From the NCBI GenBank assembly GCA_945874145.1, contig CAMCFN010000018.1, positions 1-64,000 of the forward strand: a DNA stretch of 64,000 nt, in the 5' to 3' direction. The position numbers were made by a program, and so were the translations under genes. Shown piece by piece: positions 1,509 to 47,294 of the stretch; the first letter of the stretch is position 1; each line of letters starts with the position of its first letter. The stretch comes from Akkermansia muciniphila. Its GTDB lineage: Bacteria > Verrucomicrobiota > Verrucomicrobiia > Limisphaerales > SXTU01. The notes under the pieces are model-generated. The model was given only the letters and a program-made list of their open reading frames with translations. It ran no database searches and was not told where the DNA came from.

Positions 1509-3761
1509 TCAGAGACCCCTCACGTCGTCTGCTACTTGGAAGATGGCGAGCACAGCCTGCGCCTGCGCCGGATCGTTCAAATAGACCGCGCCGGAGCGGA
1601 TTTTGGGAATGGGTTCGCCTTCCAGTCGGAGCGGGAAACGTTCGTGGAGGCGCTGTGCACAGGCGGAAAAATCAACGAAGCCTTCTGTCCGCAGGGCGGC
1701 GGCATTGACGAGCCGGAACTTTCCGCTTGCTCCCGGGGCGACGCGCTGCATCAGCTCCAAGGTCAACCGCCCCATTGTGTAACGCGGGTTGATTTCGACG
1801 ACGGGCTTGAGCCGTGCGCGCCCTTCGCGGTCGCGATACACGAAGGCGTCCACGCCCACGGGGCCGCGGTAGCCCGCAGATTTCAATTCGGTTTCCAACG
1901 ATTTGAAAAGCGTGGCCAAGAGCTCGCGCAGCAAGCCCGCCGCGCCACGCTGTTCGTGGAAGCAATCCAGCACGGCGGGCGGCAGTGAGCGGGCAAAGTT
2001 CGGCGCGGCGGTGTTGGCGAGGAACTGGCCGCGCCCGTCCGTGACCAGGCCGGTGTAGCCAAGCAGGCGCAGGCCGCTTGGTTCCATTTCAAGTTGCGCC
2101 GAGAAATCCACGAGCCGCTCCAGCCATGGTTCGACCACGAGCTGCCGTCCGCCTTGCAACGACTTTTCCAGCCAGCGGCGTTGCGCGTCCAGCAGCTCCG
2201 GCTCCCACAGCCGGATAGCGTTGTGCCCCGCGAGTCCCAAGGCCTGCTTCACCACGACGCGGTGATGCCCTCGCGCTCGGATGGTGGCGACTGCGTCAAG
2301 TGCCGCGTCGAGTGTGTCCACGGCGATCCCGACTTCATCCAACGGGCAAAGGCAGGGTGCACCTGCCCCGTGCCGGCGGCTTGCCGCCGCCCTTGGTGGC
2401 TCTCGATCGGACGCGTCGTGCGGGGCACGCGCAACGCGGCGGTCGCGGACCGCCGGCACGGGGGTGCCGTCCGCTCTGTCCCCGCTGAGAAATGCCCGCA
2501 GGAAACCCGCGCTCCACGCCTTCGAGTAAAGCCGGGCAATGCCATCGTTGAAAGAGCCTCCTGCGGTGCGTGCCTCGCCGGTGAGGCTGGCAAACAGCGG
2601 CGCGAGCAACTCCACGCTGTCCGGCCCCCATGCCCACGGGCGCAGGCGACCGAGTTTACGCTGCGCGAGCGCCGGAGCGCCGGTCTCGGACCCGGCGTGC
2701 TGCGCGGTCCGAACAACGTCGTGTCGGAGACCGGCGCTCCCCGCCACGAACTCCGGTAGCGGGAAGCCCGCCTGCTTGATGCCGCTGAGGAACTCCACCG
2801 CCGGACGCTTCTCGACGAGCACGATGTCGTCCTGACGACAGAGGAATTGCGGCAAGTTCCCCAAATCGCGCGCAAGCTGCGCCTGATGCTTGACCGGCGT
2901 AAAGGCTCTCCCATGTGCGATGTAGGCTTCGGCAAACGGGTTGAAAACAAACACGCTCGGCGTGCGGCCTTTCGACTGCGCATACACGTCCAGCTCCGCG
3001 ATGAACTGCGCGTCCAGTCCGGCGGCCCGACGGCCTTCGATGTTGAGCGCGAGGCCTTTCGCCCGCTGTGGAGAAAGCGGGAACTTGAGCTGCGCGCAGA
3101 AGGCTTCCCAGTCGCCTTGCCCCGGCTGCTTCCAGCGGCGGAACCACTTCAGCCCGTAGGCGACGTGGGCGATTTCGTCGCGATAGATTTGGTCGAGGAG
3201 CGTCGCTGTGTCCGCGTCGCCCACGGTCGCGAAGCCGCGCGCGAAGTGGCGTGCGAAGTCGAGATTCGCCTGCTCGAAGGTCAGGCTCAGACCGGCGACA
3301 TAATCCATCGGATTGCTCATGCCCGACACCGCGCGCCAGAAGTATCCGCTCACCGGTAGCTCGCCGAACGCGATGCCGCACGCCTGCATCCGCGCGAGGT
3401 AGAGCCGCGTATGCTCCTGCTCGTCGCGCAACGTCTGGAGCACGTCGCGGCGGAAGGCGGCGGGCGCGTCGGGAAAGCGGAGTAGCACGAGCGCCATCAG
3501 CTCCGTGGCGAGCAGCTCGTGGTTCGCGAAGAAATGCAACAACCGCCCGCGCTCGCGTTCGTTGTCGAGGCGGTGGAGACCGGGGAACTCAGCTTTGCTG
3601 GAGCCTTGCACTTTGAATGTTAGTTCCCTCGGTCGGCCCGGTGTCGGCGGCGCAGCGAGCGCGGAACCCGGCCGTCCGTCCGTGACGACGGTGGGGCACT
3701 GGAGCTTTTCCTCCAGTGTCGTCGCGAAGAGCACGCGCTCGGCAAGTTCACGCAGTTCCAT
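1509..3761 (-). CDS. DUF455 ferritin-like / ATP-grasp fusion protein
   Basis: A 750-residue two-part protein. Residues about 1-290 match the DUF455 ferritin-like family, with helices containing ANHELLATELMALVLLRFPD, RDEQEHTRLYLARM and YRDEIAHVAYGLKWF, whose Glu/His residues are typical of a di-iron site. The C-terminal part, from about residue 475, has ATP-grasp features: VVKQALGLAGHN and the metal-binding VVEINPRYTMGR. The substrate is unknown. I chose the ATG at 3761 because MELRELAERVLFATTLEEKL is the usual family N-terminus; the open frame extends upstream only with non-family sequence. Residues about 341-363 and 431-471 are Arg/Ala-rich inserts encoded by palindromes, and the last eight residues come from a dispersed repeat. 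Confidence 0.82.
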   Translation of the reverse strand: MELRELAERVLFATTLEEKLQCPTVVTDGRPGSALAAPPTPGRPRELTFKVQGSSKAEFPGLHRLDNERERGRLLHFFANHELLATELMALVLLRFPDAPAAFRRDVLQTLRDEQEHTRLYLARMQACGIAFGELPVSGYFWRAVSGMSNPMDYVAGLSLTFEQANLDFARHFARGFATVGDADTATLLDQIYRDEIAHVAYGLKWFRRWKQPGQGDWEAFCAQLKFPLSPQRAKGLALNIEGRRAAGLDAQFIAELDVYAQSKGRTPSVFVFNPFAEAYIAHGRAFTPVKHQAQLARDLGNLPQFLCRQDDIVLVEKRPAVEFLSGIKQAGFPLPEFVAGSAGLRHDVVRTAQHAGSETGAPALAQRKLGRLRPWAWGPDSVELLAPLFASLTGEARTAGGSFNDGIARLYSKAWSAGFLRAFLSGDRADGTPVPAVRDRRVARAPHDASDREPPRAAASRRHGAGAPCLCPLDEVGIAVDTLDAALDAVATIRARGHHRVVVKQALGLAGHNAIRLWEPELLDAQRRWLEKSLQGGRQLVVEPWLERLVDFSAQLEMEPSGLRLLGYTGLVTDGRGQFLANTAAPNFARSLPPAVLDCFHEQRGAAGLLRELLATLFKSLETELKSAGYRGPVGVDAFVYRDREGRARLKPVVEINPRYTMGRLTLELMQRVAPGASGKFRLVNAAALRTEGFVDFSACAQRLHERFPLRLEGEPIPKIRSGAVYLNDPAQAQAVLAIFQVADDVRGL
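1512..1535. repeat. Dispersed repeat R1, copy at a gene end
   Basis: The plus strand reads GAGACCCCTCACGTCGTC followed by TGCTAC. This is a near copy of the arms at 20051-20134 and 43879-44114. Read on the minus strand it encodes the last eight residues (VADDVRGL) of the DUF455/ATP-grasp protein, and its outer edge provides part of the TGA stop. No inverted partner arm was found nearby. Confidence 0.75.
2351..2469. repeat. In-frame palindromic insert 1
   Basis: The outer arms CCCCGTGCCGGCGG (2366-2379) and CCGCCGGCACGGGG (2450-2463) are perfect 14-bp reverse complements about 70 bp apart, and the sequence just inside them is also partly complementary. The segment keeps the reading frame open and encodes an Arg/Ala/Pro-rich stretch, about residues 431-471, between the two domains of the DUF455/ATP-grasp protein. 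It resembles REP or palindromic-element inserts into coding sequence. Confidence 0.7.
2674..2740. repeat. In-frame palindromic insert 2
   Basis: The arms at 2674-2691 (GGAGCGCCGGTCTCGGAC) and 2723-2740 (GTCGGAGACCGGCGCTCC) are reverse complements at 17 of 18 positions with a 31-bp centre. The segment encodes about residues 341-363 (GSAGLRHDVVRT..) of the DUF455/ATP-grasp protein, where the family is not otherwise recognisable, and the frame is preserved. Confidence 0.75.
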
Positions 3762-3860
3762 CGCACGATGCGTAGCAGGGCTGGGGAGGCGTGGCGAGTC
3801 GCCAAGTAGGATAGCGCGTCCCGCCTGTCCCTCCATCTTCCGCTCCCCCTAAAATTTAGA

Positions 3861-3884
3861 AGGACAGGCTGGAAGCGCTGTCCT
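3861..3884. repeat. Intergenic hairpin between divergent genes
   Basis: AGGACAG (3861-3867) and CTGTCCT (3878-3884) form a perfect 7-bp stem with a 10-bp loop. It lies in the 161-bp region between the divergent starts of the DUF455 fusion (3761) and glcD (3923). It may be another dispersed hairpin or a regulatory palindrome; the sequence cannot decide. Confidence 0.45.
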
Positions 3885-3922
3885 GCTTTGCAACGCCGCG
3901 CCGCCTCGCTACACTTCGCGCC

Positions 3923-20050: not shown

Positions 20051-20134
20051 GTAGGAGACGAGGTGACGAGTCTCTGACTGGATTGTCAGTTCTGCTGCTT
20101 GCAAGAAAGTGAGACTCCTCACGTCGTCTCCTAC
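20051..20134. repeat. Dispersed repeat R1, paired-arm element
   Basis: The left arm at 20051-20074 begins GTAGGAGACGAGGTGACG and the right arm at 20111-20134 begins GAGACTCCTCACGTCGTC. They are reverse complements at 22 of 24 positions around a 36-bp centre. The element starts at the base immediately following the alcohol dehydrogenase stop codon and lies in front of the PPC protein gene. The same arm occurs at 1512-1535 and 43879-44114. Confidence 0.85.
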
Positions 20135-24327: not shown

Positions 24328-24411
24328 ACCACGAATGGACACGAATAGGCACGAATCGGGAGGTCCTTCAGGGCCACTTTGCATTCGTGTTCATTCGTGT
24401 TCATTCGTGGT
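24328..24411. repeat. Dispersed repeat R2 in the serS-glgA gap
   Basis: The left arm at 24328-24356 has three ACGAAT repeats (ACCACGAATGGACACGAAT..). The right arm at 24383-24411 reads ATTCGTGTTCATTCGTGT.. and matches its reverse complement at 25 of 29 positions, separated by 26 bp. The element occupies nearly the whole 99-bp gap and ends 9 bp before the glgA start codon, so a transcript from serS into glgA would carry a long hairpin. Confidence 0.85.
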
Positions 24412-46031: not shown

Positions 46032-47255
46032 CTAGTGGTCGGAGAGAAAGACGACGGTGTCGCGGCCCGGTTGCACGGTGAAGGTGGCGGTCTTCACGCG
46101 GTGCGGGGTGCCGGCGGCGTTGAGGAACTCGACGGTGGCGATGTGCTGGCCGGGCGGGAGTTCGGCGGCGGCGAAGCTGAGGTGGCCGGGGAGGTTCTCC
46201 CAGCAGCGCGTGTCGGCAGTCGGGTTGGTCGCGCCAGAGATGAGCTTGCTGGCGAGGCCGAAGAGCAGCAGTCCCGCGCCGATTTCGTCGCCGGCGTTGT
46301 GCCGCCGCTGTTGTGTGCTGGCCAGCACGGCCCCGCTGATAATCGCTGCGTCGCCGACTGAATTTGCACCGGACTTGAACTGCGCCTTGCCGGCGAGGAT
46401 GTGGTCCATCACGCGCCCGCCGCGCGTGGTGGCTTGGAAGTAGAGGTCGTCGTAGGCGGGGGCGGGGAGCGCTTGGCCGGCGACTTTGACGACGGCGGAT
46501 TTCGCGCTCGAACTACCTGCGCGGAAGCGGAGCTGCTCGCGGAACTGGCCGCTGGCGTATTTGAGCGGGCCGTTGCCGAACTCGACGAAGAAAAGGACGT
46601 TCGCGCGCGGGGCGTAGGGCGGGAGCGGCGTGCTGCGCGTGTGGCTCTGCGCGCGGGCGAGTGCGTCGGAGCCGTCGGCAGCGAGCTTCACGGAGGCGAG
46701 GCCGTCGAGGTAATCGAGCAGCGTCCAGTCGCCGGCGTAGGTCTTGTTCTCGGCGTCGCTGTCGAGGAGCTGGCCGGTGCGGAAGCAGGCACGGGCGTTG
46801 TCCGGCTCGCCGTCCATCCAGTAGAGGATGCCGCGATAGAAGTAGGCCATCACGCGCTCGTAAGGCTCGCCGATGAAGTTCTTCTTGGCCTCCTCGTTGA
46901 AGAGGCGGCGGGCGCTGGAGGCGGCTTTGTCGGGACCGTAAATACCGCCGAGGCGGGCAAGGGCGTCCTCAAGCTCGACCTTGGCCTGGTCGAAGCGGCC
47001 CGCGCGCATGGCGAGCGCGGCGTTGCGGTAGCTCCAGAGGACTTGGTCGCGGCGGGAGGCTTGGGGAGCGGAGCCGGTGGCGGAAGCAGCGTTGGAGGCT
47101 GGGCCTTCGGAGTAGGTGGCGCAGCCGGTGGAGAAAACCAGCATCACGGCTGGTAGCCACATTGCCAGCGGAGCGCGGGCCTTAGACTGCTTCAGCGTGG
47201 AATTCCCCAAGGGCAGAACCTCGCCGTTGCGCTGAGTTGGAAGCACTTTGGACAT
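46032..47255 (-). CDS. COG3014-like tetratricopeptide lipoprotein
   Basis: A protein of up to 407 residues. The lipobox VMLVFSTGCATYSEG lies at about residues 37-51, so the mature protein is a lipoprotein whichever start is used (47255, or the ATG at 47162 that lacks basic residues). TPR-like helices follow (SYRNAALAMRAGRFDQAKVE, ERVMAYFYRGILYWMDGEPD NARACFRT). The C-terminal half is beta-rich, with SGQFREQLRFRAG and FTVQPGRDTVVFLSDH. COG3014 genes are often next to YcfL and LpoB genes, as here. Role probably in outer-membrane or peptidoglycan maintenance. Confidence 0.78.
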   Translation of the reverse strand: MSKVLPTQRNGEVLPLGNSTLKQSKARAPLAMWLPAVMLVFSTGCATYSEGPASNAASATGSAPQASRRDQVLWSYRNAALAMRAGRFDQAKVELEDALARLGGIYGPDKAASSARRLFNEEAKKNFIGEPYERVMAYFYRGILYWMDGEPDNARACFRTGQLLDSDAENKTYAGDWTLLDYLDGLASVKLAADGSDALARAQSHTRSTPLPPYAPRANVLFFVEFGNGPLKYASGQFREQLRFRAGSSSAKSAVVKVAGQALPAPAYDDLYFQATTRGGRVMDHILAGKAQFKSGANSVGDAAIISGAVLASTQQRRHNAGDEIGAGLLLFGLASKLISGATNPTADTRCWENLPGHLSFAAAELPPGQHIATVEFLNAAGTPHRVKTATFTVQPGRDTVVFLSDH

Positions 47256-47267
47256 ACGGATGTTGAA

Positions 47268-47283
47268 GCGGACTGAAGTCCGC
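47268..47283. repeat. Dispersed repeat R6 hairpin
   Basis: GCGGACT-GA-AGTCCGC is a perfect 7-bp palindrome in the 39-bp gap between the LpoB-like gene stop (47295) and the COG3014-like start (47255). A related hairpin (GCGGACA...TGTCCGC) is at 58113-58130. Confidence 0.6.
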
Positions 47284-47294
47284 GCTCCGTTGGC

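Follow-up and report, generated by a model that had tools for sequence, protein, structure and literature searches.

The window (the whole stretch of DNA that was analysed, 64,000 nucleotides) carries near its start a gene whose coding sequence holds two palindromic elements. The features of this region are as follows.

1509..3836, minus strand: host gene, 775 aa, DUF455 domain plus a C-terminal domain (from the open reading frame, Pfam and 80 named orthologues)
2366..2463, no strand: family-A palindromic element, in frame, site 1, residues about 458-491 (from arms, copies and orthologues)
2366..2391, plus strand: outer arm of the family-A element, with foot CCGTGC and its own hairpin GGCGGC-TT-GCCGCC
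2392..2437, no strand: spacer of the family-A element, which varies among genome copies and is alignable among orthologues
2438..2463, minus strand: inverted arm of the family-A element, with coding-strand hairpin GGCGGTC-CGC-GACCGCC and compensatory changes among orthologues
2674..2740, no strand: family-B palindromic element, in frame, site 2, residues about 366-388, arms GGAGCGCCGGTCTCGGACCCGGCGT / ACGTCGTGTCGGAGACCGGCGCTCC

The first-pass annotation had described a DUF455/ATP-grasp gene containing perfect 14-bp inverted arms about 70 bp apart. The DUF455 domain is well supported (residues 53-279, Pfam, E 1e-48), whereas the C-terminal part of the protein matches ATP-grasp weakly (PF02655, E 0.17, below the cut-off), and ATP-grasp is a possible, not a significant, assignment for this domain. 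The arms are exact: CCCCGTGCCGGCGG at 2366-2379 and CCGCCGGCACGGGG at 2450-2463, separated by 70 bp. When mismatches are allowed they extend to 26 nt with 81% complementarity (2366-2391 / 2438-2463), giving an element of about 98 bp across which the reading frame stays open and which adds some 35 amino acids. Perfect inverted repeats of at least 14 bp with a gap of at most 150 bp occur at two places in the whole window, 2366-2463 and 2674-2740, both in the host gene. The second of these, which had been overlooked, belongs to a different sequence family from the first. Windows simulated with an order-3 Markov model contained on average 0.2 such pairs, as against the 2 observed; taken by itself, this makes the site-1 pair unusual without being decisive. 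Further palindromes in the window are of the GTAG type (20051-20134), the ACCACGAATGGACACGAAT type (24328-24411), the GGAGCGCGGGC..GCGCTCC type (47164-47294) and the GTAGGATAGCGCGTCCCGCC type (3798-3894).

Dispersed copies of the two families

We searched for copies of the family-A consensus arm, CGTGCCGGCGGCTTGCAGCCGCCG, in the window's own genome (G000) and 10 congeners, allowing up to three mismatches and using the reversed pattern as control. The own genome contains 61 family-A arms, and larger numbers are present in G005 (179), G007 (114), G001 (107) and a fourth congener (76); two other congeners have them rarely. Family-A-like arms were found in the own genome and in all 10 congeners, and the control pattern was found in none of them. 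Because its arms form a dispersed family, the palindrome is judged to be real. An order-wide scan showed that family A is almost absent outside the genus. The family-B consensus arm, GGAGCGCCGGTCTCCGACCCGGCG, occurs 50 times in the own genome and 119 times in G004, many of the latter being identical (control, 0). Full copies of either family within the own genome agree in their arms and differ in their spacers, and each arm folds into a small stem of its own. As read from the sequence, all six frames of both consensus arms are free of stop codons.

Genome-wide palindrome statistics were obtained from an 864-kb sample of the own genome. This sample contains 62 strong palindromes, as against none in the simulated sequence tested; most of the 62 are intergenic, and according to a codon model 8 lie in frame in predicted coding sequence. 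Palindrome-carrying genes, named by sequence inspection, include an exonuclease-like gene with two elements, an MFS-type transporter and cytochrome-type genes. Different genes translate family B in at least three frames (GAPVSDPAR, SAGLRPGA, ERRSPTRRV), so that no single family-B peptide is conserved.

Some copies have particular structures. G004 shows a burst of identical family-B arms, and many of its family-B pairs combine, at a uniform distance of 46-48 bp, one arm that has a GGTC/GACC stem with another that has GATC/GATC. This suggests a subfamily that was active recently and whose left and right ends differ. Nested elements, in which a palindrome lies inside the spacer of another family, were seen in L193, L194 and G000:C6:7372-7505 (in L114). 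Long-spaced family-B arm pairs in G004 and G005 were considered as candidates for an autonomous element and rejected: they contain nested palindromes or host sequence, and no transposase.

Repeated occupation of two linkers and covariation of the stems

The orthologue set comprised 80 named orthologues, mostly from metagenome assemblies of Limisphaerales / Verrucomicrobia subdivision 3, and 82 proteins were scored. Eight of the records (L304, L305, L309, L329, L356, L357, L364, L375) bear titles naming Klebsiella pneumoniae, Proteobacteria or Akkermansia muciniphila; their gene groups with Limisphaerales, and they are probably mislabelled metagenome assemblies. The full family-A element is present at the same place in four species of the genus, the window's own and three congeners. 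G002 holds half of it, the remaining members lack it, and G010 carries a GTAG-tagged sibling, family D, in the same host gene. Twenty-four of the 27 palindromes scoring at least 13 lie at two linkers, near residues 363-389 and 448-494. At a score of at least 10, palindromes were found in 21/82 proteins at site 1 and 15/82 at site 2, a total of 36 as against 2 of 164 shuffled sites. The first-pass annotation had proposed an insertion that relatives should in part lack, and the alignment bears this out: site 1 is bimodal in length, empty sites mostly measuring about 28-33 aa and filled ones mostly 46-68 aa, and in place of one conserved segment many orthologues have an empty site or an unrelated palindrome. 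The families at the two linkers vary by lineage, and include A, B, GTAG-tagged, GGTAGGGC, GGAGCGCGGCTG, GTGGGACAGGCG and others. The gene tree requires a minimum of 16 state changes at site 1 and of 15 at site 2; these tallies are rough because family labels were assigned by eye and many tree forks are weak. Since the linker itself diverges too fast, the base-level junction and a target duplication could not be placed in close orthologue pairs. In the sister species L315 and L333 a common CACGCATCACGCATCACG stretch occupies site 1, and palindrome arms flank it in L315 only; either arms were lost, or they may have enclosed pre-existing sequence.

These data bear on the simplest alternative, that the segment is a conserved Arg/Ala-rich protein linker whose GC-rich codons are palindromic by chance. 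The region is indeed a linker, with a peptide similar to the one found in four congeners. However, the segment is absent from most orthologues, the same arm DNA occurs at tens of unrelated places, and the stems covary at the expense of the amino acids. The orthologue site scores and the dispersed arm counts led us to reject this reading, which is hardly credible. A chance origin of the palindrome was likewise rejected on the basis of the family-A arm counts, the orthologue sites and the simulated windows.

In family-A stems, 46 of 49 both-sided changes are Watson-Crick, compared with 3 of 10 when the partner is slid by one base; for family B the values are 30 of 44 and 3 of 12, all of these figures counting copies and not independent events. 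Among orthologous family-A copies, changes in the inner stem recode the host-gene peptide (VPAVRDRR, VPATCSRR, VPAVCNRR, VTAASSRR). Thus, among these copies the nucleic-acid stem is preserved and the protein sequence is not.

Compensatory changes that maintain stems would also be expected of an mRNA hairpin, of whatever origin, that selection keeps because it pauses translation or aids folding between the two domains. The fold energy, about 2 sd below that of shuffles, and the recurrence of unrelated families at the same spots are in line with such a role. Most orthologues do without the hairpin, however, G002 keeps only half an element, and the same stems covary across dispersed copies, which places the constraint on the element rather than on the host gene; we regard selection for an mRNA hairpin as very unlikely. 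Alternatively, the covariation could result from quasipalindrome correction, in which imperfect palindromes are repaired against a template as the DNA replicates, acting on old, immobile copies. This process would yield perfect compensatory changes within single stems, as seen in the host gene, and it may contribute to stem maintenance. As a full account it is unlikely, since it explains neither how the same arms came to be dispersed nor why G004 has a burst of identical family-B arms and sister species have different families.

RAYT transposases beside palindromes and inside genes

Y1-type tyrosine transposases are encoded in 8 of the 11 genus genomes, and two tested proteins exceed the cut-off of NF047646 (NCBIfam, REP-associated tyrosine transposase, RAYT). 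The first congener RAYT loci had no family-A or family-B arms nearby, which was initially counted against a link with RAYTs. This doubt was dropped because the flanks show that each RAYT has its own palindrome family, as is the case for several of these genes; the GTAG family next to a genus RAYT, for instance, is the one found in the G010 host gene and at 20051-20134 of the window. Of the RAYTs, 9/11 in the genus and 46/66 in the order have a strong palindrome no more than about 400 bp away, compared with 30/400 random places in the own genome. In G103, which belongs to another genus, exact family-B arms at positions 1425 and 2283 of locus L240 bracket a RAYT. Searches with PF01797, a RAYT alignment and NF047646 found no RAYT in the own genome (82% complete), and no family-A-bracketed RAYT was found in the 11 genus genomes or at the about 100 RAYT loci examined at order level. 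Two of the loci have unusual arrangements. A family-B element is inserted in frame inside the family-B-bracketed RAYT gene itself (L240:1425-2306), and at L082 / L381 (G005:C27:164999-165682) a RAYT flanked by family-B-like arms is in the same open frame as a proline-racemase-like gene upstream of it.

Together, these results argue that the site-1 segment is a REPIN-like element that was inserted in frame in the linker in an ancestor of several species of the genus, a reading to which we give a probability of about 0.8. Its arms belong to a dispersed family and are conserved relative to the spacers, the element is absent, half-deleted or replaced in relatives, and its stems covary; sibling families flank RAYT genes, one of which is exactly bracketed by family B. 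That the element is mobile is suggested by its distribution.

The first-pass annotation had interpreted the segment as a Rickettsia-type event, that is, a separate mobile palindrome that is selected for its coding ability and is not moved by a RAYT. The in-frame mobile hairpin is upheld by the orthologues and the family, and a Rickettsia palindromic element would account for in-frame copies in ordinary protein genes, for several families per genome and for two elements in one gene. The anatomy and the genomic company of the element, however, point to REPINs and RAYTs rather than to the Rickettsia elements: the arms are REP-like hairpins with conserved feet, sibling families flank RAYTs, most copies are intergenic, the reading of family B in several frames leaves no one peptide conserved, and the CGTC tag was not seen, by eye, at the ends of A or B arms. 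An element of the Rickettsia type is therefore improbable. The element is Rickettsia-palindromic-element-like in effect and REPIN/RAYT-like in kind.

By analogy with TnpAREP and REPINs, a RAYT (an HUH/Y1 transposase) would recognise the single-stranded arm hairpins, handle the paired arms as single-stranded DNA, and copy or move the element in trans, thereby spreading the unit. We infer that family A is moved in this way. Insertion would probably be frame-blind; copies that shift the frame or fall in structured parts of a protein would be lost and those in tolerant linkers would persist, selection retaining copies that are stop-free, a multiple of three in length and situated in such linkers. 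The absence of stop codons from all six frames of the A and B arms would help the retention of in-frame copies. This scheme needs no role for the added peptide, most likely a neutral ballast without a selected function.

The order-wide search also returned many RAYT matches within open frames of 600-1560 aa. In the frames that were opened, Pfam places the transposase domain inside DNA polymerase III alpha (dnaE), PriA, a DinG-type helicase, a type I restriction subunit (hsdR), ClpB, a UDP-sugar pyrophosphorylase-like protein, threonyl-tRNA synthetase (thrS) and alanyl-tRNA synthetase (alaS). The Y1_Tnp domain lies in frame in genes at L399, L401, L402, L405, L411, L412, L416 and L417, and further embedded-RAYT loci are L200, L079, L241-L244, L400, L404, L406, L407, L414, L415 and L418. 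The alaS genes of L414 and L416 each contain two RAYT copies. A RAYT within alaS was also found in G006 and G007, which belong to the window's own genus, and in G106, whose assembly is a single 4.7-Mb contig. The peptides flanking the embedded RAYTs look palindrome-encoded. An earlier RAYT survey left out proteins that were longer than expected, taking them for gene fusions or annotation errors (PMC6006769). We lean slightly towards the view that the RAYT/REPIN system of this order, including whole RAYT genes in housekeeping genes, lives inside genes and yields one long polypeptide, intein-like but without splicing.

Relation to known elements and significance

In REPINs, two REP-like hairpins in inverted orientation enclose a spacer that is less conserved than they are, and copy numbers run from tens to hundreds (Bertels and Rainey 2011, PMC3116915); TnpAREP recognises single-stranded REP hairpins (PMC8266576). 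Families A and B resemble REPINs in having two inverted, hairpin-forming arms that are more conserved than the spacer, many dispersed copies, and sibling families that adjoin cognate RAYTs, the RAYT flanked by exact family-B arms (L240, G103, another genus) being the closest parallel. They differ in that a partner RAYT was found for family B only, in another genus, and none for family A, and in that a notable share of A/B-type copies lies in frame inside genes. Moreover, they begin with CCGTGC and GGAG, and because the GTAG tetranucleotide is missing beside the hairpin we do not file them as classical GTAG REPs. With MITEs they share a short, non-autonomous form and terminal inverted repeats; in contrast to MITEs, the arms are themselves hairpins and the likely partner is a Y1 HUH enzyme rather than a DDE transposase. 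The linker is too divergent for a target duplication to be demonstrated.

Rickettsia palindromic elements are mobile palindromes that add an in-frame peptide to unrelated proteins (PMC10969869, PMC3733652); they are about 150 bp long or CGTC-tagged, come in several families per genome and have no known dedicated transposase. The present families share with them the in-frame insertion in protein-coding genes and the number of families per genome, but are associated with RAYTs, and family B has no one preferred frame, being read in several. Di Nocera 2013 (PMC3733652) describes GTAG and CGTC palindromic repeats, REPtrons, TIRtrons and RAYT genes that have long terminal inverted repeats on either side. 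It also reports that genes of the verrucomicrobium O. terrae (Opitutus) contain GTAG REPs in frame, with double insertions in uvrA. Given the in-frame palindromes of Rickettsia (PMC10969869) and the GTAG REPs in O. terrae genes (PMC3733652), the kind of event is already known. Families A and B, the invasion of the same two linkers across the order and the RAYTs inside housekeeping genes are not described by Di Nocera 2013, as far as the text consulted shows. Within the searched literature, three findings are new: families that lack the tag, two linkers of one protein invaded repeatedly across an order, and RAYTs embedded in other genes.

This free-living lineage thus combines frequent insertion of mobile hairpins into protein-coding sequence with many independent families and identifiable transposases, and here random insertion followed by selective filtering can be told by direct counting from insertion targeted to tolerant sites. 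RAYT genes embedded in essential genes are seen in these data as well. If these are indeed translated as single polypeptides, this would give the transposase both expression and protection from deletion.
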